Source of the DNA: Thiomicrospira sp. WB1
Lineage (GTDB): Bacteria; Pseudomonadota; Gammaproteobacteria; Thiomicrospirales; Thiomicrospiraceae
DNA length: 64,000 nucleotides
NCBI RefSeq assembly: GCF_001507535.1
Contig: NZ_LQBN01000001.1
Coordinates: 682,001-746,000, forward strand
Direction of reading: 5' to 3'
How positions within the stretch are numbered: the stretch's first letter is position 1; each line of letters starts with the position of its first letter. Position numbers and translations under genes: made by a program. Of the stretch, positions 15,809 through 34,354 are shown one piece after another. Under the pieces are notes generated by a model that did no database searches, was not told the origin of the DNA, and saw only the letters and a list, made by a program, of their open reading frames with translations.

Positions 15809-18460
15809 ATGTTTCGCACCTCGCTGTTGCGCCGTAATCGTCAAGTTCTGGCTTTTAGCTTACTGTTGCTTTTGAGTTTAGGCATTCTCTCGCTTTGGGC
15901 CGCGCATCATTACTTTCTAGCTGAAGCCAAATCGGGCTTTGTCGCCAAGCAGACAGCCTTGTTGCAGGAACGCATCGACAAAAAACAAAAAATCCTTCAT
16001 GGCGTGATGTTAGCGTTGTCCCAGAACTCAACCATTCAGCGTGCGCTGGCCTTTGAAGACCGCCAGGCACTGCATGAAGAGTTGGGGCATCTACGCGAAA
16101 CCTTTGCCACCTGGACCGGGTTTGAAAATTACGGGTTCCATGCCATCACTTTTGATGGGCGATCCTTGTACCGCTCCTATGCGCCGGATTCATTCGGTCA
16201 GGACGTTCGCCAGCACCCGATGATGCGCGAGGCCATGAGCGATCTGACTCAAGCCGTGACTCGTCTGGGGCAGGGCGGCTTCGGCCAGGCTTATCGGGTG
16301 GTCAGCATCCAGCCGGTGTTCAGTTTGACCGATGCCACCGAACTGGTCGGGTTTATGACGGTCTCTCAAGGGCTGAAACAGGTCCGGCTGGAGTTTGAAC
16401 AGAGTCAGATGCCGTATGCAGTGTTTCGCCAAACGCCGGGTTCAGACAAGACGGCCTCGCCTGTCTGGCAGGTGGATGCAGCCGAGTATTTTTCGGGTCA
16501 ACCGATTGCAACCTGGCAATTATCCCAGTGGGACCTTATGCCGGGACAGGTCCACAAAAAAGCACACTGGTACTATTTCGTGCAACCGTTGAATTTTGGC
16601 TTGGCGGCGTCACCCGAGGCGTATCATCTGGTCGCCGTGCCGCAGGTCCGTTTGCAAGAGCAGGCCTGGCAAAAAACCATGCAAGTCGCTTGGGTGCTGG
16701 TGGCGGCTCTGTTGGCAATGGTCGTGGGTGGATTGATGCAGCTGGGCCTGTTGCATTTCAATGTGCTCAAGCCCCTGCGGCGTTTGACCGCAGCAATGCA
16801 GGACATTGTCACCACACAGCGATACGATCGATCGGTCTGGGTGGATCAGGATGACGAAATCGGGGACGTGTCGCAGGCCTTTAACCAGTTGCTGGACAAA
16901 ACCAACCGGGTGCTGTTTGATCTTAAGTATCTGAAAATCGCCATTGATCAGACATTGATTGTGTCGCGGGCAGACTTGCATGGCACCATCACGGACGTCA
17001 ACGACCGTTTCTGCGAGATCAGTGGTTATCACCGGGATGAACTGCTGGGACAACCGCATAGTTTGGTTCGCCACCCTGACATGCCGTCTGAAACCTTTCG
17101 CGACTTGTGGGCGACCATCCAGTCCAAAGAAATCTGGTCAGGCGAGATTCAGAATCAGCGCCGCGATGGGACCAGTTATCATGTCATGTCGCACATTATT
17201 CCCATTCTGGACGCCGAGGGCAACCTGACGGAATACCTGTCGATCCGCCAGGACATTTCCCTCATCGTTGCGTTGAAAGAAAGCTTACAGGCGGCAGCGG
17301 AAGAGGCCCGAAAAGAAAAAGCGCTGGCTCAGGAGGCGAACCAGGCCAAATCCCAGTTTCTTTCTTCCATGAGTCATGAGTTGCGCACGCCGTTGAACGC
17401 CATTATTGGCTTTTCGCAGCTGTTGGAACTGTCGCAGAAAGATGCACAGCAAACTCAGCAGCTGCAAACCATTCAGGCCAGTGGCAAGCATTTACTGCAG
17501 TTGATCAATGATATTCTCGAATTTGCCAAGCTCGAAGTCGGGCAGTTGCCCATGCAGTTTGAAGCCACAGAGATGGTGGGGCTCACGGAGGAAGCGACTC
17601 AGTTGATTGCCTCGGAAGCCGATGCGCAAGGCATTGGCCTGGACGTGGAACATCGCGATGCGCCCGTGTTTGCTCAGGTGGACCCGCTTAGAGCGCGTCA
17701 GGTGATGATCAACCTCTTGAGTAATGCAATCAAGTACAACCAGCCGCATGGGCGTGTTTCCGTCACGTCGCGTCAGGTGGCGACGGATCAGGGACCGATG
17801 TGGCAGTTAAAAGTTGTGGACACGGGCATCGGCATGGATGCCGATCAGTTGGCCAGCCTGTTTGAACCGTTTAATCGCCTGGGTCAGGAACGCTCGGGCA
17901 TCGAAGGCACAGGCATTGGTTTGAGCATTACGCGGGATCTGATAGAACAAATGAAGGGGCGCATTGAGGTGACGAGCCAGCCGGGCGAGGGCAGTTGTTT
18001 TGTGGTTCGGTTCCCAGTGATCGATCCGGCGGAGAGACCTCTTTCCGAAGAGGATCAAGCAGTCTCCGACCCCACTCAGGCATCGAGACAGACGCTGTCC
18101 ATTCTTTATGTGGAAACCGACCCCCAGCGGATGAGCGTGGTGTCGGAGGCGATCGAGTCGTTTGACGATGTGACGTTAAACATTGCGCCGACTTGGGCCA
18201 ACGCCGAGGATCAGTGGTGTCATGGCTGGCCTCAGATTGTGATGGTGAATGCGTGTGATGCGCAAGCGCCTGAACAGACGGAAAAACTGCGGCGTGCGTA
18301 TGAAGACGCGGGGCGATCAGTGCAATTGTATGGTGTGCTGGACAAGTCGGCGCAATCGGCCAGTTTGTGTCACCAGTCCGTGTTTGATTCGTTGGTGTTT
18401 CTGCCCTTGGATCAGACGCATTTTCGGGCCCGCCTGACGGCAGTGAGGTTGGGGTTATGA
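15809..18460 (+). CDS. Membrane sensor histidine kinase: periplasmic sensor - HAMP - PAS - HisKA - HATPase - pseudo-receiver
   Basis: 883 residues. Membrane helices at about 12-34 and 290-315 enclose a periplasmic region of about 255 residues, probably of double-Cache type (inference). HAMP is at about 318-370 and PAS at about 380-500 (VNDRFCEISGYHRDELLG). The H-box [11 protein letters not shown] has His523, then a HATPase with GTGIGLSI. The last 115 residues follow the beta/alpha rhythm of a receiver (LSILYVETDPQRM... IVMVNACDAQ...), but no Asp stands in an LxxDxxMP context. Together with the next two kinases it forms a paralogous group sharing the H-box surroundings and this tail. Phosphate from His523 must go to another protein, for example the HD-GYP regulator just upstream (inference). 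Confidence 0.9.
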   Translation: MFRTSLLRRNRQVLAFSLLLLLSLGILSLWAAHHYFLAEAKSGFVAKQTALLQERIDKKQKILHGVMLALSQNSTIQRALAFEDRQALHEELGHLRETFATWTGFENYGFHAITFDGRSLYRSYAPDSFGQDVRQHPMMREAMSDLTQAVTRLGQGGFGQAYRVVSIQPVFSLTDATELVGFMTVSQGLKQVRLEFEQSQMPYAVFRQTPGSDKTASPVWQVDAAEYFSGQPIATWQLSQWDLMPGQVHKKAHWYYFVQPLNFGLAASPEAYHLVAVPQVRLQEQAWQKTMQVAWVLVAALLAMVVGGLMQLGLLHFNVLKPLRRLTAAMQDIVTTQRYDRSVWVDQDDEIGDVSQAFNQLLDKTNRVLFDLKYLKIAIDQTLIVSRADLHGTITDVNDRFCEISGYHRDELLGQPHSLVRHPDMPSETFRDLWATIQSKEIWSGEIQNQRRDGTSYHVMSHIIPILDAEGNLTEYLSIRQDISLIVALKESLQAAAEEARKEKALAQEANQAKSQFLSSMSHELRTPLNAIIGFSQLLELSQKDAQQTQQLQTIQASGKHLLQLINDILEFAKLEVGQLPMQFEATEMVGLTEEATQLIASEADAQGIGLDVEHRDAPVFAQVDPLRARQVMINLLSNAIKYNQPHGRVSVTSRQVATDQGPMWQLKVVDTGIGMDADQLASLFEPFNRLGQERSGIEGTGIGLSITRDLIEQMKGRIEVTSQPGEGSCFVVRFPVIDPAERPLSEEDQAVSDPTQASRQTLSILYVETDPQRMSVVSEAIESFDDVTLNIAPTWANAEDQWCHGWPQIVMVNACDAQAPEQTEKLRRAYEDAGRSVQLYGVLDKSAQSASLCHQSVFDSLVFLPLDQTHFRARLTAVRLGL

Positions 18461-21213
18461 CGAGCCTTTCCATGGATCGTGCGTCTCTGTCAGGGGAACG
18501 CATTCATTTGATCAGTCCGGCTCTGCATGCGGAGGATTTGGTTCAAAAAGAGCGTCGACGGGCCTTGGGTCATGCGTTGATGGCAAAACAGATCCAATTG
18601 GTTACCGTGGCGCGACAGGCGGATCTGACCGCACTTTGGTCCTCTGATTCGTCTTCGGAGCAGCCCGCCATGCTGGTGTTTGATGCCACCCCTGAAACGC
18701 ATTTTACCTTGCAGGACTGGCTGACCCGGGTGCCGGAAACCGTCCGCCAGGCCACGCCCTGTGTCTGGATTGAGTCCATCGAACGACTGGATGTGCGCTT
18801 GACACTGCATCAGCTGGGTGTGGATGAGTTGTTGGACCCGACTCAGCCGGTGCAATGGTTGGCGGAAAAACTCAGCGAACGGCTGGCCATGCAGCGGCAG
18901 GACAAGGACCGGGTTTTGTTGCTGGATGACAATAAGGTGGCGCTTGAGCTTCACACGGCATTGTTGAAACAGGCAGGTTTTGAGGTAGCCAGTTTCAGTG
19001 ATCCGTATCAAGCGTTCGCGGCGTTGTCCGCATTTGATCCCGATGTGCTGGTGTTGGATTTGTACATGCCCCAGGTGTCCGGTCGGGCGTTTACCTGGGC
19101 CGTGCGGCAGGGGCGTACCGAGGCAGAGCTGCCAATTGTGTTTGTCTCGGGGGAAGATGCCTTTTCGCATCAGTTGGTTGCGTTGCAGCAAGGGGGCGAT
19201 GATTTTCTGGTCAAGCCGGTCCAGCCGCACCGATTCGTGGAGACGGTTCGTTTTCGAGCTCACCGGGCACGCCAATACCGCTATTTGTCTGAAAACATTC
19301 GTCAGCGCCTGTATGAGCAACAACGGCTCAGTGAGGCTTTGAACCATCATGCCATTGTCAGTGTGACCGATCGTGCCGGCCGGATCACTCAGGTCAATGA
19401 TCGTTTTTGTCAGATCAGTGGGTATCGTCGGGATGAATTGCTGGGACGCACCCACCGGATGATCAAATCCGACCGCCATCCGCCGGCGTTTTTTCAATCG
19501 CTGTGGCAGACCATTTCGTCGGCCAGGGTCTGGCAGGGCGAAGTCTGTAACCTGAGCAAGCAAGGCGAAGAATACTGGGTTTATTCCACCATTACGCCCT
19601 TTGTGGATGAGACGGGACGTATTTATCAGTATGTGTCGATCCGAACGGACATCACACATGTCAAAGCGATCGAGCTGGAGTTGAAGGATCGGGTCTGGGC
19701 ATTGAATGAACGGATCAAGGAAAGCCATTGTCTTAGTCGGGTGATGCAGACCCTGACCCATGATGAGATGGATGAAGCGGCGATGTTGCAGCAACTGGTC
19801 AATGAGGTGCCACTGGGCTGGTCAGTGCCCGATCGGACAGGCGCCAAACTGACCTTTGGGTCCCAAGACTTTGTCAGCGAAGGGTTTGTGACAACGGATG
19901 AGTGTGAGCAGGTGACTGTTTGGGACGGCGACGAAGCAGGCACTTTGCAAGTGTGTTTGCAGGCTTCCGAGCAAGATGCTAAGAGCGCCTCGGACCAGAG
20001 GTTTTCATCGGAAAAGCAGACCCTGCTGTCACAGATTGCGTTGCAATTGAGTCAGGCCTTGGGGCGCCGACATGACCAGGCCCAATTGCTCGAGGCCAAG
20101 GTGCACGCAGAACAGGCCAACCAAGCCAAATCCGATTTTCTCTCCGCCATGAGCCACGAACTGAGAACCCCTTTGAATGCCATCATCGGCTATGCGCAGT
20201 TGCTGGCGACCCAGACGTTGCCGGCGCCGATTCCCGAACAGATCAGCATCATCGAACAAAGTGCCGACCATTTGCTTCAGCTGATCAATGACGTACTGGC
20301 GTTTGCCAAACTCGACAGCGGTCAGGTCGAGTGTGAACGCCGCCCGGTGGCGTTGGACTCCGTGGTCCAGGAAATTTGTACGATTGTGGCGTCAGAAGCC
20401 ATGCGCAATCAGGTTGAGGTGCAGGCGCCCGACCTGTCTCAGGCCGATCCGGTCTGGGCCGATCCGTTACGGGTCAAGCAGGTGGTGCTCAATCTGGTGT
20501 CCAATGCCATCAAATACAATCGCTCCGGCGGTCAGGTCTGGTTTGTCTGGCAAACGCGTGAGCTTGAAGGACGCCTCTATGGCTGTTTACGTGTACAGGA
20601 TACGGGCAAAGGCATCCCTCAAACGCATCTTGCGCGTTTGTTTGAGCCGTTTGAACGTTTGGGGTACGAAAATTCTGTGATTCAGGGCAGTGGCATTGGG
20701 TTGAGCATCAGTCAGGAACTGGTGACGAACATGCAGGGTTGGCTGGAAGTGGAAAGCGAACCGGGTCAAGGCAGTGGCTTTACGGTGTGTTTGCCGCTGG
20801 CGGATTCTGCTGAGGCCAGACAGCCCGCCCCTTCAGCCAACTCGCACCCTTCCCCGGAACACCCTTTGAAGTTGTTGGTCTGGGTTCAACGGCCATCGGT
20901 GATGGGCAAGGTCGCGCAAAAGGTGGCCACTCATGCGGGGATTGACCTCAAAATTGCGCCGTCGCTTGACAACGCGTTAAGCGAAATCGATGGTTGGCAG
21001 CCGGATTGGGTTTGGGTGGATCATCCTCTGGTCCATTCGGCTCAACCTTTGATCGATCAGGCGCATGCGGCCAAACATCAAGCGTCCGTTTGTCTGTTGA
21101 AGCAGGCGGATGAAACAGACAGCTGGACAGACATGCCTGAGTTTGACGGTCAGTTTGACCTGGATGACCCGGCGGCGTTGTCGACATGGATGCGTGAGGA
21201 GACAGGGCAATGA
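18457..21213 (+). CDS. Cytoplasmic sensor kinase: receiver-like - REC - PAS - linker domain - HisKA - HATPase - pseudo-receiver
   Basis: 918 residues, no membrane segments. Residues 1-145 look like a degenerate receiver. A true receiver follows (about 152-270) with VLLLDDN and Asp201 (LVLDLYMPQVSG). A PAS domain (about 290-410; VNDRFCQISGYRRDELLG) is close to that of the preceding kinase, and next comes a domain around 425-530 that I cannot name with confidence (possibly GAF-like). The H-box [11 protein letters not shown] has His567 and is followed by a HATPase. The C-terminal 115 residues form a receiver-like domain with KIAPSLDNAL and no phospho-acceptor Asp in a conserved context. The N-terminal receiver suggests that it is controlled by, or feeds back from, another kinase in the cluster (inference). 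The start overlaps the previous stop (ATGA). Confidence 0.9.
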   Translation: MTSLSMDRASLSGERIHLISPALHAEDLVQKERRRALGHALMAKQIQLVTVARQADLTALWSSDSSSEQPAMLVFDATPETHFTLQDWLTRVPETVRQATPCVWIESIERLDVRLTLHQLGVDELLDPTQPVQWLAEKLSERLAMQRQDKDRVLLLDDNKVALELHTALLKQAGFEVASFSDPYQAFAALSAFDPDVLVLDLYMPQVSGRAFTWAVRQGRTEAELPIVFVSGEDAFSHQLVALQQGGDDFLVKPVQPHRFVETVRFRAHRARQYRYLSENIRQRLYEQQRLSEALNHHAIVSVTDRAGRITQVNDRFCQISGYRRDELLGRTHRMIKSDRHPPAFFQSLWQTISSARVWQGEVCNLSKQGEEYWVYSTITPFVDETGRIYQYVSIRTDITHVKAIELELKDRVWALNERIKESHCLSRVMQTLTHDEMDEAAMLQQLVNEVPLGWSVPDRTGAKLTFGSQDFVSEGFVTTDECEQVTVWDGDEAGTLQVCLQASEQDAKSASDQRFSSEKQTLLSQIALQLSQALGRRHDQAQLLEAKVHAEQANQAKSDFLSAMSHELRTPLNAIIGYAQLLATQTLPAPIPEQISIIEQSADHLLQLINDVLAFAKLDSGQVECERRPVALDSVVQEICTIVASEAMRNQVEVQAPDLSQADPVWADPLRVKQVVLNLVSNAIKYNRSGGQVWFVWQTRELEGRLYGCLRVQDTGKGIPQTHLARLFEPFERLGYENSVIQGSGIGLSISQELVTNMQGWLEVESEPGQGSGFTVCLPLADSAEARQPAPSANSHPSPEHPLKLLVWVQRPSVMGKVAQKVATHAGIDLKIAPSLDNALSEIDGWQPDWVWVDHPLVHSAQPLIDQAHAAKHQASVCLLKQADETDSWTDMPEFDGQFDLDDPAALSTWMREETGQ

Positions 21214-23171
21214 CCATGGCAAAGTGGCCTCAGTGGGTGGAGCGACTCTCCCCCGTGATGGCGGTGTTTCTGATTTTAGGGATATTGGTGATCTTCTGGT
21301 TGCATTATGTGCAATTGGAAAAGCGTTCGCATCGGATCGCGCTGGAAGATGCGGCCAATTTTTCCGAGTCGGTGGTGTCGTTTCGCAATTTCTATGCACA
21401 GCAGATCATCCCGGCACTGGAAGTGTATGACGTGCCTGTGACGCATGATTATGCGATTGAAGATGGCAGTATCCCGCTGCCGGCGACGTTTGCGATCGAT
21501 TTCGGGGATCAGTTGTCCAGTGATTCGCAATACAAGGTGCGTCTCTACAGTGATCAGCCCTTTGCGTGGCGTGAACAAGGCGGTGCACGTGATGATTTTC
21601 AAAAGGAGGCCATGCAGTATTTACGAGCGCATCCCGATGACACTTACAGTCAATATGAAGTGATCGAGGGGCAGCGCGTGTTGCGTTATGCCGTGGCGGA
21701 TGTGTTTCGAGATGAAAGCTGTGTGGCCTGTCACAACCAGTACCCGGGCACGCCGCGAACCGACTGGCAACTGGGTGATGTGCGCGGAGTGCTGGAAGTT
21801 CAGCGCCCGGTTTCCTCCCTGCAGGCGGTCAACAATCAATCGGCCTGGATCACATTCATAGCCATGCTGTCGATGGCGCTGTTGGCGACTTTGATCCTGA
21901 CGTTGGTGTTGCGGAGGATGCAGCAGGCGCTGGATGTCTCAAGGGAACAGCAAGCGGCCTTGGCGAAAGCACGGGATGCCGCTGAACAGGGCAATCAGGC
22001 AAAATCCGATTTTCTTTCTGCAATGAGTCACGAACTGCGAACCCCGCTGAATTCGATCATCGGTTTTTCTCAATTGCTGGATCTGGAACCCTTAACCAGC
22101 GGACAAAAGCAGCAGGTTGGCTTTATTCATGACAGTGGCAAGCATTTGCTGCAGTTGATCGAGGATGTGCTCGCCTTTGCCAAACTCGAAAGCGGTCAGC
22201 TTAACATTCACATGGAAAGGGTGAATGTGAAGGCAGTGATTGAAGAAGTGCTAACGCTGACTCAGCCCGACCGGGAAGCACGAGGCATTGAGCTGGTGTT
22301 TGAGCCGGTCAAAACCGAAGAAATTGTGTGGGCGGAACGCTTGCGGCTCAAACAGGTTGTGACCAATCTGATCAGTAATGCCATCAAGTACAACCGGGAA
22401 GGCGGACAGATTCGCTTGAGTTGTCGGGTATTGACCCATCAGGGCCGTCCCTGGTGGGAGATGACCATCGCCGATACCGGTCCGGGCATAGCCCCGGACA
22501 AGCTTTCGCATTTGTTTGAACCGTTTAACCGCCTGGGGTATGAAAACTCGGACATCGAAGGCACCGGCATTGGTTTGAGCATTAGTCAGGATTTGGTTCA
22601 GGCCATGCATGGCACCCTTGACGTTGAAAGCGAGGTGGGTCAGGGCTCGCGCTTTTCGGTTGGCTTGCCGCTGGTGGATGACGACGCGCAAACCGGGGTT
22701 TGCCAAAGCCCGAAGGCAGATCAAACAGAATTCGGGGGGATGCAGGCAACGCAAACGGTGTTCCCCGACAGCACAGAATCCCGGTTGACGGCGGTCAGCT
22801 GCCTTTATGCCTCCGCAGACCCTGCGTCACTGCAATCGGTGTCCGAATGGGCTGAAGCCGTTGGTGAGCCGTTGCAGTTACGCATTGCGCCCACCCTGGC
22901 TAATTTGTGGGATCAGTTGGGACACCAACCGGCCTCACTGGTGATGCTGGATGTGACCCAACTTGAACAAGCAGAGGCACAGCCCGGCGATCGGTTCAAG
23001 GTGGATGCCATCCTCAAAGATCAGTCTGTGGCGATGGTTTATCGTACTGAGCAGGAGGCCCAAATCTGCCAGGCCTGGTTAAAAAGCTATCCGCAGTGGC
23101 ATTGCCTGGCGTTGGAACCCGTGGCTGTGAAAGCGTTTTGGCAGCATTTAATGAGTTCAGGAGAGGCATGA
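21210..23171 (+). CDS. Membrane sensor kinase with Tll0287-like (DUF3365) haem-c domain - HisKA - HATPase - pseudo-receiver
   Basis: 653 residues. Two membrane helices (about 16-36 and 211-234) enclose a periplasmic domain with CVACHNQYPGTPRTDW, that is CxxCH at 171-175, the c-type haem attachment motif. The surrounding pattern (FYAQQIIPAL near the start, GVLEVQRPV after the motif) matches the Tll0287-like family. The likely input is redox state or a haem ligand. The H-box [11 protein letters not shown] has His274, followed by a HATPase with GTGIGLSI and a C-terminal receiver-like domain containing RIAPTLANLW, matching the tails of the two preceding kinases and lacking a clear phospho-acceptor. 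Start and stop both overlap neighbours by 4 bp. It depends on the cytochrome c maturation machinery, which is not in this window. Confidence 0.9.
   Translation: MTMAKWPQWVERLSPVMAVFLILGILVIFWLHYVQLEKRSHRIALEDAANFSESVVSFRNFYAQQIIPALEVYDVPVTHDYAIEDGSIPLPATFAIDFGDQLSSDSQYKVRLYSDQPFAWREQGGARDDFQKEAMQYLRAHPDDTYSQYEVIEGQRVLRYAVADVFRDESCVACHNQYPGTPRTDWQLGDVRGVLEVQRPVSSLQAVNNQSAWITFIAMLSMALLATLILTLVLRRMQQALDVSREQQAALAKARDAAEQGNQAKSDFLSAMSHELRTPLNSIIGFSQLLDLEPLTSGQKQQVGFIHDSGKHLLQLIEDVLAFAKLESGQLNIHMERVNVKAVIEEVLTLTQPDREARGIELVFEPVKTEEIVWAERLRLKQVVTNLISNAIKYNREGGQIRLSCRVLTHQGRPWWEMTIADTGPGIAPDKLSHLFEPFNRLGYENSDIEGTGIGLSISQDLVQAMHGTLDVESEVGQGSRFSVGLPLVDDDAQTGVCQSPKADQTEFGGMQATQTVFPDSTESRLTAVSCLYASADPASLQSVSEWAEAVGEPLQLRIAPTLANLWDQLGHQPASLVMLDVTQLEQAEAQPGDRFKVDAILKDQSVAMVYRTEQEAQICQAWLKSYPQWHCLALEPVAVKAFWQHLMSSGEA
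23069..23078. repeat. Shortened palindrome CCAGGCCTGG
   Basis: The 10-bp core with one outer T retained on the right (GCCAGGCCTGGT), within the pseudo-receiver of the haem kinase. Confidence 0.6.
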
Positions 23172-23983
23172 TGCGACGATTGGCAGGACTTTTGTGTTTG
23201 TTTGCTCTGGCGGTTGGTCCCGTTGGGGCGCAACCCAAATTAATTTTTGGCGTGGTGCCTCAGCAGAGCCCTTTGAAGCTATACCAGAACTGGCAACCGG
23301 TGGCTGAGCATCTGTCAGAAGTGACTGGGCGTGAGGTCGTGTTTGAAACCGAAAAATCCATCGCCGAGTTTGAAACGCAACTGGCGAAGGGACGCTATGA
23401 TCTGGCCTATATGAATCCTTATCATTATGTGGTTGCGCATGAGCAGCAGGGGTATCAGGCCCGTTTTCGGCGTGCGGGCAAGATTCGCGGCATTCTGGTG
23501 TCAACCCGCACTGCATTCAATCCAGAGGAACCCATCACCCGACCCGTGCTGTTTCCGTCCCCGAATGCGTTCGCGGCCACGTTATTAATCAAATACGAAT
23601 TGTTGGCCAAGCAGGGGGTGTCGTTGGAATATCGCAACCTGGTCAAGTATGTCAACTCACATGATTCGGTGTACAAAGGCGTGGCACGAGGGGTGAGTGA
23701 TTTCGGTGGCGGTGTGGAACGAACCTTTCGCACCTTTGATGAAGGCGCGGACAAAGGGAAACTGCACATTGTCTATCGAACCGATCCTTACCCCAGTCAT
23801 CCCATTGCCTACCACCCGCGCCTGGCACCTTCACTGCAAGCCCGTTTTGACCAGGCCTGGCAGACATTGCCTTCTTCGGTCATGGAAAATCTGGGGTTCA
23901 AGCGATTGCTGACGGTCGGGGACGCCAATTATGACTCGATTCGTGCCTTGCGCCGTCATTTGTCCACAGCGCCAATTAAATAG
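23168..23983 (+). CDS. PhnD-like periplasmic solute-binding protein
   Basis: I chose the ATG at 23168 because it overlaps the previous stop (ATGA), follows GGAGAGG and opens a signal peptide ([20 protein letters not shown]). A longer upstream frame is unlikely. The mature protein (about 250 residues) has the fold landmarks of phosphate/phosphonate-type binding proteins: [37 protein letters not shown] and [11 protein letters not shown]. There are no transporter genes nearby. It lies between two sensor kinases and 8 bp ahead of one with a small periplasmic domain, so it is probably a soluble ligand sensor for that kinase (inference). The related domain fused to the kinase at 12012-14618 supports this. 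Confidence 0.88.
23850..23861. repeat. Near-perfect palindrome ACCAGGCCTGGC (11 of 12)
   Basis: Within the PhnD-like protein gene, encoding DQAWQ. The last base of the core differs. Confidence 0.6.
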
Positions 23984-23991
23984 GTTGTTGC

Positions 23992-26235
23992 ATGTCGTTT
24001 CGCTATAAGTTTTTATTGACGTTCATTCTGGCCGAAGTGCTGTTTGTCACCGCAATTGTGTGGCTCAATTTTTCTGCCTTGAAGGAAACGTCCCGGCAAC
24101 TGGTGGCGGACCAGCTTACCTCTTCGGGGGCCATGATGGCCGAGTCGGCCAAAGTGCCGCTGCTGGTCAAGGACTTGGCCACTCTCGATAATGCGCTCGA
24201 GACCTTTATCAGTCAGAAAAACATTGTGGCGGCCGGTGTCTGGGATGAAGACGGGCAGCCTTTGTCTATGAAGGGCGATCAAACATTATTGACCGAGGTT
24301 TCCAATTGGGCAGGGATTTCTGGACTGCAGTCGGCCGAATCCTCCTGGCAGACACTGTCTTCGGCTTCATTAAACCTGCCCGCTGACGGGCGGATCGGTC
24401 ACCGGGCCGAAGTGACGATAGGAATGGACCATTTGGGCGAAGTGCGCTTTGTGTATGATGCGTCTTCTGTGATGGCCATCACGCAACGCAACCGGACCTG
24501 GACATTGAGCGTGTTTGCGTTGGAAATGGTTTTGGCAACGATTGCGGCGCTCTGGCTGGGATGGCGCATCACACGCTCCTTGCGAACGCTGTCCGGTGCG
24601 GCGATGAAGATTACGCATCATCACGCCTTGAAAGAAAGCGATTTTCCGACGGGCAACGATGAAATCGGCCAGCTTTCCAAAGCCATGCAGACGATGGCCC
24701 ATCAGATTGATGACCGCACCGATAAACTCAAACAGGCCCGCAAGCGGGCGGAAGCGGCCAATCGGGTCAAATCAGAATTCATTGCCAATATGAGCCATGA
24801 AATTCGTACCCCTCTCAATGGCATACTGGGGCTCAGTCAACTGCCGACCGAATCGGCGTCAGCGCAAGAGCTGGCTCAGCGCTTGAGCAGAGTCAACCAT
24901 TCCGGAGAACTGTTACGAAGCATCATCAACGACATTCTGGATTTTGCCAAAATGGAGGCGGGTAAGATGCAGGTCTCGCCCACGTCTGTTGATCTGCGTG
25001 CCTTCATGCAGGCGTTGCTTGACATGTTTGAGCCGCTGGCCGCGGAAAAAGGCCTGGCGCTGAACCTGGTACTGGCTGAGGATTTGCCGGATTGCGTCAT
25101 GCTGGACTCGTTGCGTCTGCAACAGGTGCTGAACAATCTGGTTAATAATGCGTTGAAATTCACGCATGAGGGGACCGTGACCGTGACGGTGTCGCAGCGC
25201 GATGCCTCCGATCACCAGGCCTGGTTATTGTTTGAGGTGGCGGACACAGGCATTGGCATGAATGCGCAACAGCAGGCCCGCTTGTTTCAGGCATTCAGCC
25301 AGGCCGACTCCGGTATTACCCGCCAATATGGCGGGACAGGTTTGGGGTTGGTGATCAGTGAAAAGCTGGTCCGATTGATGGGGGGCGAGCACATCGACCT
25401 TGCCAGTCAGCCAGAGCAAGGCACGTGTTTTTCGTTTGCGTTGCCTTGTCAGACCTGTGTGGAACCGCCTGATACGCATCAGGCCGAGGAAAGCGCCGAT
25501 TCTTCCTCTCTGGCGGCATCGGATGCAGCGGTCACACCGCTGGAAGGGAACATCCTGCTGGTGGAGGACAATCCGGTGAATCAGGAGGTGGCCAAAGCCA
25601 TGCTGAAAGCACTTGGCTTGGTGCCCGAAACCGTCGATGGCGGCGAGCAGGCAGTGACGGCGTGTCGCAACCAGTCGTTCGACCTGATTTTAATGGATAT
25701 TCAGATGCCGGGCATGGATGGGTATGAAGCCACACGGCGCATTCGTGAGCTGGATGCTCAGGTCCCGATTATTGCGTTGACCGCTGCCGCCTTGATTGAA
25801 GATAAGGATAAAGCGTTAAACGCCGGTATGAATGATCACCTGGCCAAGCCCATTGATTTTCCGGTGCTGGCGCGAACCCTGACTCGTTATCTGACGCAGT
25901 CGGTGGCAGAGCAAAGACCCGGTTTGGTTGTGTGGGCACCACAGCCTGAAAGAATCAAGCCCTGGCTGCCGGCATTGAAGCGTTTGGTCCGGGTGCACTG
26001 GGCTCCGGAGGCGAACACGGTTGCCAAGAGGCTGGCGAACCCCGGTGACATCGCTTGGGTGGCCGTGGATTCCGATGTTTCGCTTGAAGAGGCTCAGTCC
26101 CTGAAAGCCCGTTACCCGCAAGCCGACTGGGTGATGTTGGTCGCCAGTGACGCGGATCTGGCAGACAGTGAAATCGAAGGGTGGCCGCTATGGACGCCGG
26201 ATAGGCTGGTCAATCGGTTGCAATCAAACCAGTGA
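23992..26235 (+). CDS. Membrane hybrid histidine kinase: periplasmic sensor - HAMP - HisKA - HATPase - REC - tail
   Basis: 747 residues. Membrane helices at about 8-28 and 171-192 bracket a 140-residue periplasmic domain, followed by HAMP (about 193-248). The H-box [11 protein letters not shown] has His269, then come the HATPase (GGTGLGLVI) and a receiver with Asp569 ([14 protein letters not shown]). The final 105 residues (from [14 protein letters not shown]) form another receiver-like segment without a recognisable acceptor. Kinase core and receiver are closest in look to the kinases at 3942-8519 and 12012-14618. It follows the PhnD-like gene by 8 bp and may receive its signal from that binding protein (inference). 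It is the last gene of the tightly packed run. Confidence 0.9.
25214..25225. repeat. ACCAGGCCTGGT palindrome, copy 4
   Basis: Inside the HATPase part of the preceding kinase gene, encoding DHQAWL. No extension beyond the 12-bp core. Confidence 0.9.
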
Positions 26236-26348: not shown

Positions 26349-26960
26349 ATGAACAATTCAATCGAAACCAATGTGGAAGAATTTATGACCACCACAAAAG
26401 CCTGTGAGCTGTTGGGGGTCTCCAAAACCATTATCAAGCGCATGGTTGACCGGGGCGAAATTGAAGCCTGGCGAACCACGGGCGGTCACCGGCGATTAAG
26501 TCGGGCATCGGTGATGGCGCATTTACAGCGAATCAAAGGGGCGACGCAAACGACCCGGTCGGCCGAGAAAGGGCCAGTTCGCGTGATGGTGTTGGATGAT
26601 GACCGCATCACGCAATCGATCCTGGTGGATTATCTGCATCAGCGTTTTCCCGAGGTGGATGTTGTGCAGGCACTGGATGGCTACGAAGGCTTGATCAAAG
26701 CGGGGCAGGGGGCGTTCGACTTGATTTTTGTGGATCTGCACATGCCTAAAATGGATGGGTACGCGGCCATTGATGCCATTCAATCGCTTGAGAGCAGCCG
26801 AACCACCAATATTGTGGTGATCACCGCCGACCAGCCAGAGCAGGTGGATATGGAACGTCTGGGCAAACATCGGGTCGTGCTGACAAAGCCTTTACCGCTG
26901 GATGTCATTGGTCAATTTATTTGTTATGAAAAAGCCCTGAAAGATGCGCGTGTTTTCTAA
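26349..26960 (+). CDS. Regulator with N-terminal excisionase/MerR-type HTH and C-terminal receiver
   Basis: 203 residues. Residues about 13-60 (TTKACELLGVSKTIIKRMVD, then TTGGHRRLSRASVMAHL) form the small winged HTH seen in excisionase/BldC-like proteins. Residues about 76-195 form a receiver with the acidic cluster VLDDDR, Asp129 (FVDLHMPKMDGY) and a late KPLPLD loop. The order, DNA-binding domain first and receiver second, is the reverse of OmpR or NarL regulators. As the only DNA-binding receiver beside seven kinases, it is the best candidate for their transcriptional output (inference). A 113-bp AT-rich gap before it probably carries its own promoter. Confidence 0.88.
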   Translation: MNNSIETNVEEFMTTTKACELLGVSKTIIKRMVDRGEIEAWRTTGGHRRLSRASVMAHLQRIKGATQTTRSAEKGPVRVMVLDDDRITQSILVDYLHQRFPEVDVVQALDGYEGLIKAGQGAFDLIFVDLHMPKMDGYAAIDAIQSLESSRTTNIVVITADQPEQVDMERLGKHRVVLTKPLPLDVIGQFICYEKALKDARVF

Positions 26961-27507: not shown

Positions 27508-27556
27508 AAGCCTCTTGGGTGGCCCCTCTATGGGTTTGCCTTAAGAGGCTTTTTTA
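27508..27556 (+). terminator. Intrinsic terminator after the small basic protein gene
   Basis: A 9-bp perfect stem (AAGCCTCTT at 27508-27516 with AAGAGGCTT at 27543-27551) with a 26-nt loop is followed by a T-rich run. Confidence 0.75.
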
Positions 27557-27583: not shown

Positions 27584-27612
27584 CTTTTTACTTCGTACCC
27601 CTTTTGTATAAT
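27584..27612 (+). promoter_or_regulatory. Probable promoter of the phytochrome gene
   Basis: A perfect TATAAT (27607-27612) lies 39 bp ahead of the GTG start. The element 17 bp upstream (CTTTTT, 27584-27589) is a poor -35, so an activator may be needed. Confidence 0.45.
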
Positions 27613-27651: not shown

Positions 27652-29133
27652 GTGAGTAGAGAAATCCACGTACATCCGTGTGAACGAGAGCGTCTGCCCT
27701 GGTCGGGGCAGATCCAGCCTTTTGGTGCCCTGATTGGTGTGGACAAAACCACACTCACAATAACGCATGCCAGTGCCAACACCGAGACGGTTCTGAATCG
27801 TCGTGCGCAAAGTTTGTTCGGTGAGCCGGTGGCCACACTGTCTAATCAGCTGGCGCTGATTCTGGAAGAAATGGCTTTTGAGCCTGAGGACCAGGTGTTC
27901 GAGCGTAAGGTGGCCCTTCAAGGCCTTCCCTGCTGGTTACGTATCAGCCAGGATGCGCACCATTACGTGATCGACATTCAGCGACTTGATTCCGAATCTG
28001 ACCTGGGCCGCATGTCGCCGGAACTGTGCGATCAGCTCGCCTATTCACCGGATAGCGCAGAGCAGGCGCAACGTTTGTTTGATTCCATGGTCAAACTGAT
28101 CAAACAAATGACGGGCTATGACCGGGTGATGCTGTATCAGTTTCAACCTGACTGGAGTGGGCAGGTCGTGGCCGAAGCCAAAAACGAGGGGTTGGGCAGT
28201 TACCTGGATTTGCGTTACCCTGCGTCCGATATTCCAAAAATTGCGCGGGATTTGTATGTGAAAAATTCCTCGCGCACGATTTGCGATGCGCAGATGGAAG
28301 CCGTACCGATTTTGTCCGCCACCCAGCAACCGATTGATCTGACCTATTCCGACACCCGCAGTGTCTCGCCCGTGCATTTGCAGTATCTACAGAACATGGG
28401 CGTGGCCGCGTCGTTTTCATTGCCGGTTGTGATTCATCAATCTTTGTGGGGCTTGATTGCCTGCCATCATTATCAGCCCAAAGCGCTTTCGCCTCAAACC
28501 AAGACGGAAGCGATCAAGCAGGTTGACCGTTTCCGGCGTGCACTGCACGGGTATCTGGCCAAACGCAAAATGCAGCATTATGATCAGCGAGAAGCCGTGC
28601 TCAGTCGGCTGGCGGGTCGCTTGCGGCGCGCACGTGATCAGGAAGCACTGTTGGCGCACTCCGAAATGGATGTGCTGGGCCTGATCAATGCGCAGGGCTT
28701 TGCCTGGATGGACGACACGCACTGCCATGCGACCGGGGAACTTCCGCCGGAAAAGGCGCTGCGAGCATTGGATCAGTGGTTTCAGGCCCAGTCGGACCGG
28801 GATGTTTTTATGACCGACAGCCTGAAGCGTGATGACTTGCCAGGTGCCGACACGGACGGGGTTGCCGGCGTGCTGGTGGTCAAAGTCTGGAAACAGGGGC
28901 AGTGGCAACGTTGCTACTGGTTCAAACGTGAAGTCATTCGTGATCTGGTCTGGGCAGGCAATCCGGACAAACCGGTGATGGAGGACGCACAAGCCGCGAC
29001 CCTCTCGCCCCGGCGCTCGTTCGATCAGTGGGTGGAAACCCGTCGCGGACACAGCGAACCCTTCGAAGATTTTGATGCGTTGACCGCCCGTCGCTTCATT
29101 CATGTGATGACCGATGTGTTGAATGAGAGCTAA
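27652..29133 (+). CDS. Bacteriophytochrome photosensory core (PAS-GAF-PHY) without output domain
   Basis: 493 residues from a GTG start preceded by GAGGGG. The N-terminus VHPCERERLPWSGQIQPFG places Cys10 where bacteriophytochromes attach biliverdin. The GAF domain has LRYPASDIPKIARDLYV and, later, VSPVHLQYLQNMGVAASFS and WGLIACHHYQP. The PHY domain has FKREVIRDLVWAGNP and the tongue motif PRRSF. The protein ends right after PHY, whereas most relatives continue into a kinase, GGDEF or other output. It should bind biliverdin and switch between red and far-red forms, passing the signal by protein contact, perhaps to the CheB-CheR-PAS or GGDEF-EAL proteins encoded downstream (inference). No haem oxygenase gene is in the window. 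Confidence 0.93.
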   Translation: MSREIHVHPCERERLPWSGQIQPFGALIGVDKTTLTITHASANTETVLNRRAQSLFGEPVATLSNQLALILEEMAFEPEDQVFERKVALQGLPCWLRISQDAHHYVIDIQRLDSESDLGRMSPELCDQLAYSPDSAEQAQRLFDSMVKLIKQMTGYDRVMLYQFQPDWSGQVVAEAKNEGLGSYLDLRYPASDIPKIARDLYVKNSSRTICDAQMEAVPILSATQQPIDLTYSDTRSVSPVHLQYLQNMGVAASFSLPVVIHQSLWGLIACHHYQPKALSPQTKTEAIKQVDRFRRALHGYLAKRKMQHYDQREAVLSRLAGRLRRARDQEALLAHSEMDVLGLINAQGFAWMDDTHCHATGELPPEKALRALDQWFQAQSDRDVFMTDSLKRDDLPGADTDGVAGVLVVKVWKQGQWQRCYWFKREVIRDLVWAGNPDKPVMEDAQAATLSPRRSFDQWVETRRGHSEPFEDFDALTARRFIHVMTDVLNES

Positions 29134-29310
29134 TTTCGGGCATTGTGAAACCTTGGTTTGACTTGCCTTGTATTTGTGTCAAACTGATGTATAGGGCTTG
29201 AATAGGTTGTAATGAGGCTGTGTCCGTTGGCAAGATCAAGGATGCCGCGCTCATCGTCGTTTTTAAATGAAATAATCGTGCCGTTTTGCTGCGGTCTGTG
29301 AAAGGATGTT

Positions 29311-32172
29311 ATGAACAAACAACCCTACTGGCTATTCCTGGGCGCTTCGGCCGGAGGCCTGGAAGCGCTCAAACAGTTTCTGCTGCATTTTCGCGGCTAT
29401 GACCGCTGTTGTCTGGTCATTGCCCAACATCTTGACCCCAAGCATCCGACCATTCTCAAAGATTTGCTGGAGCGAGTGACAGAAACCCCGATTCAGATGG
29501 TGGACGATTCCGTTGAACCTCAGACGGGACGCATCTACATCATCGCGCCGGGCTACAACGCGCAGGTGCGGGGCACACGCATTGAATTGACGCCCGCGGC
29601 GGAAGTGGGTCCCAAACCCTCGATTGATGTGCTGCTGCATTCTGCGGCGGAGGCGTTGCAGGAACGTGCTGTGGCCGGTATTTTGTCCGGAACCGGTTCC
29701 GATGGGGCCCGGGGCGCCATGGCGATCAAATCCAATAATGGGCTGGTGTTTGCGCAGAGTGAGTCGTCATCCAAATATGCGGGCATGCCCATGGCCGCAG
29801 TGGAAGCCGGAGCGGTGGACAAAACCGGTTCGCCCGAAGAACTGGCGGCTGACATTGCGGCGTTTCTTGAAACCGGCCACAAAGAATACCAGGCCGTCAC
29901 CCCGGCACCTCAGACCGATCTGGAAAAAATCTTTCAGCGTATCTATGACGTGACCGGTCACGATTTCAGTGGCTACAAGCTGAAAACCATCCGTCGCCGT
30001 CTGGCTCGACGCATGGCGGTGAATCAGTTGAGTTCAATCAAAGAGTATGTGTCGCTGTTGCTGGACTCCGACGAAGAAACCCAGCATCTTTTCAAAGACA
30101 TGATGATTTCGGTGACCGCATTTTTCCGGGACCGGGAAGCGTTTGACGCTCTGGAAACCTTGCTGGAAACCACCATTGCCAACCAGGAAGGGGAGCGGCC
30201 CTGGCGCATTTGGGTGCCGGGCTGCGCCAACGGCGAAGAGCCTTATTCCATCGCGATTCTCATGCACCGAATCAAGACTCGCCTCAACCGCGACATCGAC
30301 TACCAGATTTTTGCCTCGGACATTGATGAATACGCCTTGTCGCAGGCACGCAAAGGGGTGTTCTCCGAGGCTCAAGTGATCGATATGGATCCCGAGATTC
30401 TGGAAAACTATTTTGTCCGCCGTGATCGCACCTATCAAGTCTCCAAAAAAGTGCGGGATCGGGTGGTGTTCGCTCGCCAGAATCTGATTATGGAGCCGCC
30501 GTTTTCGCGTCTGGATCTGATCAGCTGTCGCAATCTGATGATTTATTTTTCTTCGGAGCTACAACGTCAGGTGCTGCAGACGTTTCATTTTGCGCTGAAC
30601 CCAAACGGATTACTGTTTATGGGCAAGTCCGAATCGGCTTCCAGTACCGCGCCGGAACTGTTCGAAACGCTGGATAAAAAAGCGCAGCTTTATCAGCGCA
30701 AAGCCACCAATCTGTCTCAACGTTCAGATCGGGTGCAAAGTGCCAATGCCATCAAGCGCCAAGAGCGTCCCTCGATGGTACTGGAGGCCGGCGACGACAA
30801 CGACAAACAATCCATTGCCCATAAACTGGAACAGACACTGTTGAAAGAAATGGTGCCAGTGGCGATCGTGGTGGACAAGTCCGGCCAGATCCTGCATATC
30901 CGTGGCGATGTGAACCGCTATCTGAATTTTCCGCAGGGCCGAATTGACACTAATATGCTGACGCTGGCCCGGGATGACATCAAGGTGGATTTGCGCGCCC
31001 TGATGGAACGGGCCAAAAAAGCAGGCGAGGCGACCTCGCAGGCGCTGTTTTACAAGGAGTCGGGTCAGGACATGGCGTTGTTCCTGTCGATCCGGCGCAT
31101 GCATTTTTCCGAATCGCATAACAATCTGTACGTGGTGGCGTTTATTCCCACCGAGTTGACCTTGCCTTTTGTGGACCCGGGCAAGGGCAATATGAACGAG
31201 GAAAACGCCACCAAGGAGACATTGCGCAAAGAAGTGGCGCTGTTCAAAGAGCGCCTGCAAGCCTCGGTGGAAGACCTGGAAACCACCAATGAGGAGTTGC
31301 AGTCCACCAACGAAGAATTGCAATCGTCCAACGAAGAATTGCAATCGTCCAACGAAGAATTGCAGACGGCCAACGAGGAATTGCAGTCCACCAATGAAGA
31401 ATTGTCCACCGTCAACGAGGAGCTTGAGGTCAAGACCCATGAGCTCGAACAGGTCAACACCGATCTGCAGAGCATGCTGGAGAACATGAGCGAACACATT
31501 CTCCTGCTGGATAGCCGATTGCGTCTGCTGCGTTTTACCCGACCCGCGGGGGAAATTTTTTCGCTGGATTCGTCCCACCTGCATCAGACGGTGACCACGC
31601 TGGGGCTGGAGTTGGATGTGCCAAATCTGCGCCAGGAGCTGTTGAGTGTGTTGGAACACGACCAAGTCAATCAGTTGCGGGTGCGCATCAGTGGCGACAT
31701 CTTTAACTTAAGGTTGGTGCCGCACCAGTCACCCGAGCGGGGAACCAAAGGCATTCTGATGTTCTTTGAGCGCCCGGAAAATGTCGTAACTGGTCAAGGC
31801 GATGTGTTGGAGCAACTGATTTATTCTCTGGGCTCGCAGTTGCGCTGCGGGCTGGTGGTGATTGACCAGAATGGAGTGATGATATACGCCAATGATGAGG
31901 TTTTGCGGTATCTGGGGTATGACTGGCACGAAATGCGCATGCAGAATGTGAAAATGTTGATGCCCGATCCTTATCGCAGTCATCATGACAGCTATCTCGA
32001 AGATTATCAAAAAGGAACTTCCAAAGGCCTAATGGGCCAGTGGCGGGATGTGACCGCCCAACAGAAAGACGGCAGACGCCGTCTGATGAAGCTCAAGACC
32101 GAAGAGATACGACTGCACAACGAGCGTCATTATCTGGGCTATCTGCAACCGGTGGAGAACGTTGATGAATGA
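29311..32172 (+). CDS. CheB-CheR fusion with coiled coil and two PAS domains
   Basis: 953 residues. CheB methylesterase-like domain (about 8-185) with the expected catalytic residues Ser13 (GASAGG), His40 (AQHLDP) and Asp131 (GSDGARG), but no receiver in front. CheR methyltransferase-like domain (about 205-465) with RRRLARRM, VPGCANGEEPYSIAI for SAM binding and CRNLMIYF. Seven NEELQST-like heptads (660-708) build a coiled coil, followed by one weak PAS and a final PAS (about 835-945). The final PAS contains PYRSHHDSYLEDY; by alignment with FixL, His892 sits at the haem-ligand position and Arg912 matches the regulatory Arg220. Proteins of this build usually act in signalling rather than classical chemotaxis. 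No MCP or CheA gene is nearby. AAAGGATG precedes the start. Confidence 0.92.
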   Translation: MNKQPYWLFLGASAGGLEALKQFLLHFRGYDRCCLVIAQHLDPKHPTILKDLLERVTETPIQMVDDSVEPQTGRIYIIAPGYNAQVRGTRIELTPAAEVGPKPSIDVLLHSAAEALQERAVAGILSGTGSDGARGAMAIKSNNGLVFAQSESSSKYAGMPMAAVEAGAVDKTGSPEELAADIAAFLETGHKEYQAVTPAPQTDLEKIFQRIYDVTGHDFSGYKLKTIRRRLARRMAVNQLSSIKEYVSLLLDSDEETQHLFKDMMISVTAFFRDREAFDALETLLETTIANQEGERPWRIWVPGCANGEEPYSIAILMHRIKTRLNRDIDYQIFASDIDEYALSQARKGVFSEAQVIDMDPEILENYFVRRDRTYQVSKKVRDRVVFARQNLIMEPPFSRLDLISCRNLMIYFSSELQRQVLQTFHFALNPNGLLFMGKSESASSTAPELFETLDKKAQLYQRKATNLSQRSDRVQSANAIKRQERPSMVLEAGDDNDKQSIAHKLEQTLLKEMVPVAIVVDKSGQILHIRGDVNRYLNFPQGRIDTNMLTLARDDIKVDLRALMERAKKAGEATSQALFYKESGQDMALFLSIRRMHFSESHNNLYVVAFIPTELTLPFVDPGKGNMNEENATKETLRKEVALFKERLQASVEDLETTNEELQSTNEELQSSNEELQSSNEELQTANEELQSTNEELSTVNEELEVKTHELEQVNTDLQSMLENMSEHILLLDSRLRLLRFTRPAGEIFSLDSSHLHQTVTTLGLELDVPNLRQELLSVLEHDQVNQLRVRISGDIFNLRLVPHQSPERGTKGILMFFERPENVVTGQGDVLEQLIYSLGSQLRCGLVVIDQNGVMIYANDEVLRYLGYDWHEMRMQNVKMLMPDPYRSHHDSYLEDYQKGTSKGLMGQWRDVTAQQKDGRRRLMKLKTEEIRLHNERHYLGYLQPVENVDE
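31288..31434 (+). repeat. 21-bp tandem repeat, seven units, coding for NEELQST heptads
   Basis: Seven in-frame 21-bp units within the CheB-CheR gene. Units at 31309 and 31330 are identical and the rest diverge mainly at third positions and in the last two codons. They encode a heptad coiled coil, probably a signalling helix. Confidence 0.9.
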
Positions 32173-34354
32173 TTCGCGCCGTGATCGCTGGGTGTTGAAC
32201 GACATCGAAGCCTTTCGCGATGAAAACGCGCGTCTGATTGATGCGCTCAATGCCTGCGAAAGTGAGCGCGGCCTGTTGGGGCAACAGGTCAGTGAGTTGG
32301 AAAACGAGTTTGCGTTGGTCGAGCGAGAGCATCAGGCATCGCTTCACAATTCGGATTTGTACCAGAAGATGTTTGATATCTCTCCGGTGCCAAAGCTGCT
32401 ATTGACGCCGAATATGGATATGATGGTGGCCAACCCGGCGGCCAATAACTTTTTGCAGGCCAGCGACAACGAACCGGTGAAATCCTTTCGTCGTTATTTG
32501 CAAAAAGAGGACAGCGTCGCGTTCATCAAGGCGTTTCGTCAGTGGCAATCGGGTGGCCGCTTTCCTCCGGAGCAGGTGTTCACCCTCAAAACCGGCCAGT
32601 CGTTCACAATCGAGATCGAATTACTCGATAATGTATTTGCCAGTACCCAGCCGCCGGTCTTTATGGTGTTGTATCCGGTGGACTTTACCCGAATCACCGA
32701 TCAGAGCATGCGCCTGTCTCAGCTGGCGTTGCAGCAGTTGCGGGAAGCGGTGATGATCACCGACAGCCGCAGTCGCATCATCAGTGTCAATCAGGCATTC
32801 AGTGAAATCACCGGCTACGAATCGTCTGAGGTGTTGGGTCAAACCCCGGCGGTGTTAAAGTCAGGGCGCCAATCCGATCATTTCTACCATGAAATGTGGC
32901 AGCACCTGCAAGCCCACGGCTGGTGGCACGGTGAAATCTGGAACAAGCGAAAGAGCGGGGACATTTTTCCAGAGTGGCTGCAGATCACCAAAATCTGGGA
33001 CAGTTATTCCAACCAGACGTACTATGTGGCGACCTTTTCCGATATTTCGCCGCGGCTGGAAACTCAGAAGCGGCTGGACCGACTGGCGTTCTTTGACAGT
33101 TTGACCAACCTGCCCAACCGCCATTCCCTGCAAAATCATCTGGATAACCTGCTGCTTCGCAAGCGCCAGCAGGAATCGGAAAAACCCTTTGCCATCCTTT
33201 TTCTGGACCTGGACAAGTTCAAAGAGGTCAACGATGCCTACGGACACAGTGAAGGCGATCGTGTTCTGATTGAAGCGACGCAGCGCATCACCGTCAATCT
33301 CAAAGACAACGATTATGCGGCGCGCATCGGCGGTGATGAGTTTGTGATGCTGATCACCGATCTGGAAGCCGTGGATGTGCCGTCCTTGTGCCAGCGTTTG
33401 ATTGCGGATTTATCCGCGCCGTTCAACATCGGGTCACGCCAGCATTTTTTGAGTGCCTCGATTGGCATTGCCTGCTATCCGGATCACGGCTACGAAGCCG
33501 AGGATTTGTTGCGTCGGGCCGATGCGGCCATGTATGGGGCCAAAACGCTGGGGCGCAACCGTTATCATTGGTTTGACATGGCGCTGGAAGAAAAAACCGC
33601 CTTGAATCATGGCACTTTGCAGATCCTGCGTGAGGCGATTGAAAAGCCGCTGGAGCGCATCGAGATGCATTACCAGCCTTTGTATGACCCAAATGGCCAG
33701 TGGCAGGAGGCGGAAGCCCTGATTCGATTGAAACAGGGCGACGAGCTGATGTACCCGGGCAGTTTTATTGAACTGGCCGAGCACCACGCTCTGATTCAGC
33801 CGTTGGGATTGGCACTTTTTGAGCGCATCTGCGCCGATCTGGCGGAACAGGCATTGCCTGACTCGGTACGGGTGACGGTGAATCTGTCGGTGATGCAGTT
33901 CTCGGAAGAAGATTTGATCGAACAGCTGGAAAAACGTTGTCAGCGTCATGGCATTCGACTGGACCGGTTTAATTTCGAAGTCACCGAAACCGCGGCCATG
34001 GAAAATCTGTCACTGGTGGAAAAAGGGCTGGTGGCGTTGCGCCAGAAACATTGTCGAGTCTTGCTGGATGATTTTGGCACCGGCTATGCGTCGCTTTCGA
34101 TGTTGCGTACGCTCCCGGTCGACATCCTTAAAATTGACAAAAGCTTTGTCGATGACATCGGCCATTCGCGCGTGGACAATGGGTTAATCATTGCCATGAT
34201 TTCCATGGCGCGGGCACTGGGGTTGAAGGTCGTGTGCGAGGGCGTGGAGACGCGACAGCAGGCGGACTGGTTGACCGCGCAAGGGGTGGACTATCTGCAG
34301 GGCTTTTATTTCAAGCGTCCGCAGCCGCTGGCCGGTCTGATGGCGACAATTTGA
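32165..34354 (+). CDS. PAS-PAS-GGDEF-EAL protein (both c-di-GMP domains look intact)
   Basis: The ATG at 32165 overlaps the previous gene by 8 bp, so both are probably translated together. 729 residues: a coiled coil (about 17-60), a first PAS (about 65-185), a second PAS (about 190-305; VNQAFSEITGYESSEVLG), a GGDEF domain with ARIGGDEFVMLI and an EAL domain with AEALIRL. The EAL catalytic set is present: VTVNLSVMQF, FEVTETA, DDFGTGYASL, KIDKSF, CEGVE and LQGFYF. The inhibitory-site position reads KDND, so no RxxD. It could make or break c-di-GMP depending on its PAS input. Its stop codon is part of a 16-bp copy of the repeated palindrome. Confidence 0.93.
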   Translation: MNDSRRDRWVLNDIEAFRDENARLIDALNACESERGLLGQQVSELENEFALVEREHQASLHNSDLYQKMFDISPVPKLLLTPNMDMMVANPAANNFLQASDNEPVKSFRRYLQKEDSVAFIKAFRQWQSGGRFPPEQVFTLKTGQSFTIEIELLDNVFASTQPPVFMVLYPVDFTRITDQSMRLSQLALQQLREAVMITDSRSRIISVNQAFSEITGYESSEVLGQTPAVLKSGRQSDHFYHEMWQHLQAHGWWHGEIWNKRKSGDIFPEWLQITKIWDSYSNQTYYVATFSDISPRLETQKRLDRLAFFDSLTNLPNRHSLQNHLDNLLLRKRQQESEKPFAILFLDLDKFKEVNDAYGHSEGDRVLIEATQRITVNLKDNDYAARIGGDEFVMLITDLEAVDVPSLCQRLIADLSAPFNIGSRQHFLSASIGIACYPDHGYEAEDLLRRADAAMYGAKTLGRNRYHWFDMALEEKTALNHGTLQILREAIEKPLERIEMHYQPLYDPNGQWQEAEALIRLKQGDELMYPGSFIELAEHHALIQPLGLALFERICADLAEQALPDSVRVTVNLSVMQFSEEDLIEQLEKRCQRHGIRLDRFNFEVTETAAMENLSLVEKGLVALRQKHCRVLLDDFGTGYASLSMLRTLPVDILKIDKSFVDDIGHSRVDNGLIIAMISMARALGLKVVCEGVETRQQADWLTAQGVDYLQGFYFKRPQPLAGLMATI

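Follow-up and report, generated by a model that had tools for sequence, protein, structure and literature searches.

A phytochrome that lacks an output domain raises the question of how its light signal is passed on, as in the usual account of phytochrome signaling the signal travels by helix torsion into the output domain of the same chain. Such a protein is encoded in the window analyzed here, the whole 64,000-nucleotide stretch of DNA from Thiomicrospira sp. WB1, with genes for a CheB-CheR-PAS protein (CheBR) and a PAS-GGDEF-EAL protein downstream of it. We consider it probable that these three genes form one conserved red/far-red sensor distributed over separate polypeptides, with the phytochrome acting in trans on CheBR/GGDEF-EAL to change c-di-GMP.

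The phytochrome contains PAS_2, GAF, and PHY domains, in that order (Pfam). The PHY match spans residues 315 to 491 of 493 (E value 2e-37), no domain follows it, and the chain stops 2 residues past the match, leaving no output module in the same chain. The best solved relatives of this protein are the photosensory modules of bacteriophytochromes (5e-68), and its Cys10 aligns with their biliverdin-binding Cys. In an alignment of nine output-less phytochromes, Cys10, Asp193 (in PASDIP), GAF His242, and PRRSF (453 to 457) are invariant, with the Cys of the G207 row left out of the count, as the N terminus of that row is probably out of frame. The orthologue in Hydrogenovibrio halophilus DSM 15072 (72%) has the same end point. 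Between these two genomes, the phytochrome has a dN/dS of 0.14, CheBR one of 0.07, and GGDEF-EAL one of 0.10 (NG86, with dS near saturation), values that indicate purifying selection on all three genes. A recent truncation or a pseudogene is ruled out by the matching end point in relatives, the position 177 bp before CheBR, and the dN/dS of about 0.14.

The window genome (2.28 Mb) belongs to the same genus as H. halophilus, and the genes around the phytochrome are syntenic in both. The layout of the locus is given in the table. The sequence-only reading had described a phytochrome that ends after PHY, followed by two genes that overlap each other and encode signaling proteins rich in PAS domains and coiled coils, and this description holds. 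With ATG 32165 as the start of the third gene, the two frames share 8 nucleotides (32165 to 32172). Pfam assigns CheB, CheR_N, CheR, PAS_10, and PAS, in this order, to positions 29311 to 32172 and PAS, GGDEF, and EAL to positions 32162 to 34354, and heptad-like TNEELQS repeats mark the coiled coil. The terminator-like hairpin and the candidate -10 element suggest that the unit starts at the phytochrome. Since the hairpin lies between the two, cotranscription of the phytochrome with the upstream kinases is unlikely. The hairpin pattern AGCCTCT-N-AGAGGCTTTTT has a single match in the window and none in 100 shuffles.

Table. Coordinates of the phytochrome unit in the window and of the small PAS proteins in related genomes
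Feature	Coordinates	Strand	Basis or remark
Terminator-like hairpin with T tract, between preceding ORF and phytochrome	27509..27554	+	H. halophilus has the conserved stem and T tract
Candidate -10 element (TATAAT) of phytochrome unit	27607..27612	+	Inferred; H. halophilus has a TAATAT-like sequence at the aligned position
Output-less bacteriophytochrome, 493 aa (PAS_2-GAF-PHY)	27652..29133	+	Pfam
Phytochrome Cys10 codon	27679-27681	+	Alignment
Phytochrome PASDIP	28219-28236	+	Alignment
Phytochrome SPVH	28366-28377	+	Alignment
Phytochrome PRRSF (tongue)	29008-29022	+	Alignment
CheB-CheR-coiled coil-PAS_10-PAS protein (CheBR), 953 aa	29311..32172	+	Pfam, motifs
Heptad-like coiled coil (TNEELQS repeats) joining CheR to PAS domains of CheBR	31276..31434	+	Sequence
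FixL/DosP-like heme-PAS, C-terminal end of CheBR	31798..32169	+	PDB match; heme-ligand His 892, distal-type Arg 912
PAS-GGDEF-EAL protein	32165..34354	+	Likely start ATG 32165; listed TTG 32162
GGDEF motif	33329-33343	+	Intact
EALIR motif	33713-33727	+	Intact
DDFGTG motif	34067-34084	+	Intact
Small PAS + CxxC...CxxC protein, after CheBR/GGDEF-EAL	L043 11560-12144
Small PAS + CxxC...CxxC protein, after CheBR/GGDEF-EAL	L044 3308-3886
Small PAS + CxxC...CxxC protein, after CheBR/GGDEF-EAL	L045 11133-11714
Small PAS + CxxC...CxxC protein, after CheBR/GGDEF-EAL	L046 3154-3771
Small PAS + CxxC...CxxC protein, after CheBR/GGDEF-EAL	L047 11366-11941
Small PAS + CxxC...CxxC protein, after CheBR/GGDEF-EAL	L049 3600-4223

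Across about 1,060 genomes, searches at the class, family, and phylum levels, in which short phytochromes were the top matches, place output-less phytochromes of this kind in 12 genomes from six families (f1, f79, f139, f146, f168, and f208) and two classes. In the window family, this phytochrome is present in only 2 of the 63 genomes searched, those of the window organism and H. halophilus (G006). The other eleven output-less phytochromes likewise finish at or shortly after PHY. CheBR and GGDEF-EAL are adjacent to all 12 of them, versus 1 of the 27 output-bearing phytochromes whose flanks were read; the Fisher test value for this contrast (3e-9) overstates the independence of the twelve, which form one clade, and a few flanks are cut short by contig ends. 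On these comparisons the association of phytochrome, CheBR, and GGDEF-EAL is a conserved system and not a chance of one genome. They also lend comparative support to the earlier proposal that light is passed by contact to the neighboring proteins.

In seven genomes (G309, G437, G524, G573, G140, G835, and G933), the partners are a single CheB-CheR-PAS-GGDEF-EAL protein of about 1,500 amino acids, with the domain order confirmed by Pfam for G309 and G140. The output-less phytochrome is then encoded directly 3' of the fused gene, tens of bases away or overlapping it. The locus in G585, from another class, has the fused gene with one frame break, then the phytochrome, and then bphO. G535 has CheBR, PAS-GGDEF and EAL as two frames, and the phytochrome, whereas the order in G207 is GGDEF-EAL, CheBR, phytochrome, and bphO, all as separate genes. 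As most output-less loci encode a single polypeptide, CheBR and GGDEF-EAL would really be one partner.

The phytochrome might instead signal to another partner, such as the histidine kinases encoded upstream or the HTH-receiver protein (26349 to 26960), its adjacency to CheBR being incidental. Sensor kinases and an HTH-receiver protein do immediately precede the phytochrome gene, with synteny in H. halophilus, but the hairpin and the candidate promoter stand in between, and these neighbors are not seen beside the phytochrome in the ten other output-less loci, all of which have CheBR/GGDEF-EAL. This makes a signal to such a partner improbable.

The output-less phytochromes form a single clade in both trees: in a tree of 9 rows it has support values of 100/99 and appears in all bootstrap trees, and in a larger one its 12 rows, among 65, group together with an SH-aLRT value of 100. 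The output domain would therefore have been lost once, or its absence would be ancestral to the clade, and the state was then kept. The seven fused-type proteins group in one clade (99) of the CheBR tree, next to the clade of window-family CheBR (87), of which nine members come from phytochrome-less genomes. Phytochrome and CheBR distances correlate (r = 0.66, or 0.63 with close pairs removed), a pattern that joint inheritance would explain as well as co-evolution.

The enzyme motifs of both partner proteins are intact. CheBR retains those of CheB and CheR (GASAGG, IAQHL, GTGSDG, and GCANGEEPYS), and no receiver domain was found in it by Pfam. The third gene has intact GGDEF, EAL, and DDFGTG motifs, as in dual GGDEF-EAL proteins; its I-site RxxD reads KDND in the window and RDDD in H. 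halophilus. The main route might be methylation, with the phytochrome setting the CheB/CheR balance to modify MCPs or the complex itself in taxis adaptation, and c-di-GMP being secondary. The genome, with its 16 MCP-signal domains and another CheB encoded separately, would suit this route, as would the intact CheB and CheR motifs and a CheB that no receiver domain gates. However, no MCP or CheA is seen inside the unit in the loci read, the GGDEF and EAL motifs are intact too, and GGDEF-EAL makes up the C-terminal end of the fused proteins, closest to the phytochrome gene. We regard methylation as the main route as rather unlikely and prefer c-di-GMP as the read-out.

The C-terminal PAS domain of CheBR has FixL as its best PDB match (6e-16) and also matches DosP. 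Like these oxygen sensors, it has the heme His and Arg in place; the FixL/DosP heme-PAS domains are found on a kinase or an EAL protein, whereas this one is attached to CheB-CheR. Of 11 family orthologues, 9 have this His, and the fused proteins lack it. An oxygen or redox input through this domain is likely in the window family.

The CheBR and GGDEF-EAL pair is kept in ten further genomes of the family that have no phytochrome, two of them with GGDEF only and one with CheBR in two frames. This occurrence in relatives of the window organism indicates that CheBR/GGDEF-EAL has phytochrome-independent work. In six of the ten, a third gene encodes a protein of about 190 to 205 residues with a predicted PAS fold and a four-Cys tail; three members tested gave no Pfam match over the cut-off. 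It is tempting to suppose that the phytochrome and this small PAS protein are alternative inputs, each a stand-alone protein. The split CheBR orthologue (G012, L052 6354-9280) is a possible pseudogene or an assembly error.

A gene for the heme oxygenase that supplies biliverdin, bphO, directly follows the phytochrome in 7 of the 12 genomes (G309, G437, G524, G573, G140, G585, and G207). The sequence-only reading had noted that it is missing near the phytochrome in the window, which is correct locally, and had proposed a search of the genome. That search found the gene elsewhere (G000:C2:153363-153881; PF01126, 25.8 bits against a cut-off of 23), so that a lack of chromophore supply is ruled out. 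Its divergent orthologue in H. halophilus (59%), missed by the Pfam family search and recovered by protein search, lies immediately ahead of the gene for a second phytochrome, whose output is PAS-PAS-GGDEF. At the aligned site of the window genome, with the same neighbors, bphO is kept and the second phytochrome is absent (L001 1492-2094 in G000:C2, versus L007 6895-10344 in G006, where the gene is kept directly after bphO). As the output-less phytochrome is the only PHY protein of the window genome, the kept bphO most simply would serve it.

The patchy distribution in the family and the loss in the window genome of the second phytochrome that H. halophilus keeps beside bphO might suggest that the remaining phytochrome has become a relic, or a scaffold that works independently of light, and has lost light sensing in the window organism. 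The low dN/dS, the conservation of the Cys, Asp, His, and tongue residues, and the retention of bphO all argue against this view, which we consider very improbable.

The preferred reading, a red/far-red sensor acting in trans, would work as follows. Supplied with biliverdin through the unlinked bphO, the phytochrome would photoconvert, and its change of shape would be handed on to the coiled-coil/PAS part of CheBR and to PAS-GGDEF-EAL, presumably by direct contact, given the absence of an output domain. CheBR and PAS-GGDEF-EAL would act together, a view supported by the fused protein that most relatives encode, and c-di-GMP, made or broken by the GGDEF and EAL domains, would be the main read-out. 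For adaptation, CheB and CheR would probably methylate glutamates of a partner reversibly, possibly one of the MCPs that the genome encodes. The window lineage probably has an oxygen or redox input as well, through the FixL-like heme-PAS, and light would then be read together with oxygen. The rarity of the phytochrome in the family, the 177-bp gap in front of CheBR, and the presence of the CheBR/GGDEF-EAL pair in relatives with no phytochrome weigh against this reading. A more elaborate version can be offered only tentatively, as a new class of light-sensing complex: a trans-only phytochrome docked on a CheB-CheR-PAS-GGDEF-EAL integrator with two opposed enzyme pairs (methyl on/off and c-di-GMP on/off), the Hydrogenovibrio branch reading light and oxygen, and the stand-alone sensor being exchangeable with the small PAS protein.

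Several known systems share parts of this arrangement. RpBphP1-PpsR2/QPAS1 is a trans-acting bacteriophytochrome pair in which the light signal is passed by protein contact, as proposed for the window. However, RpBphP1 carries an output region at its own C terminus, and a transcription repressor serves as its partner, whereas the partners here are c-di-GMP enzymes. CheB-CheR-PAS fusions with a long coiled coil have the same domain order and a heptad-rich linker, often with a GGDEF protein next in relatives, but they lack the phytochrome, and many in the window family have the small PAS and Cys4 protein as a third gene instead. The PadC/BphG-type phytochrome-GGDEF(-EAL) proteins, among them the phytochrome-linked diguanylate cyclase PadC (PMC9587094), likewise combine PAS-GAF-PHY and a biliverdin-type Cys with GGDEF(-EAL) output. 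In those, sensor and enzyme are joined by a coiled coil in one chain, whereas in the window they are separate genes, no protein joins PHY to GGDEF in that way, and CheB-CheR is added. Databases also contain output-less phytochrome entries; one from Rhodopseudomonas palustris, mentioned only in passing with no partner named (PMC9587094), is likewise a sensory module lacking an output domain. In a review of c-di-GMP sensing, the only GAF-based light-sensing enzymes listed are those that form part of phytochromes or cyanobacteriochromes (PMC8846402). No published description of an output-less phytochrome with a CheBR/GGDEF-EAL system was found in a search that covered subscription journals little, and its novelty is provisional.

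A clade that lacks the output domain over deep divergence and has a constant separate partner offers a natural test of contact-only photosensory signaling. For optogenetics, it would also provide a c-di-GMP system in two pieces under red/far-red control, and a signaling role becomes testable for CheBR-PAS proteins, whose function is so far little understood.

Upstream of the unit, three hybrid/sensor kinases, one of them with a Tll0287-like domain, surround a PhnD-like phosphonate-binding protein (window positions 18457 to 26235), a cluster that is largely syntenic in H. halophilus. In the protein encoded at 26349 to 26960, a MerR/HTH_17 DNA-binding domain at the N terminus precedes a receiver domain, an arrangement opposite to the usual one. 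Scanning of genome contigs with two narrow peptide patterns returned mostly cyanobacterial partial matches, plus H. halophilus and Sessilibacter. Sessilibacter corallicola has the one output-bearing phytochrome with CheBR nearby, a phytochrome-kinase that is encoded with bphO divergently from GGDEF-EAL and CheBR-PAS-receiver genes (L054 3529-12765). In G424, a 447-residue short phytochrome-like protein from a different clade is directly followed by a separate 204-residue GGDEF protein (L098 8569-10577). This pair, located inside a flagellar/motility cluster, is possibly a second, independent split phytochrome-cyclase pair.
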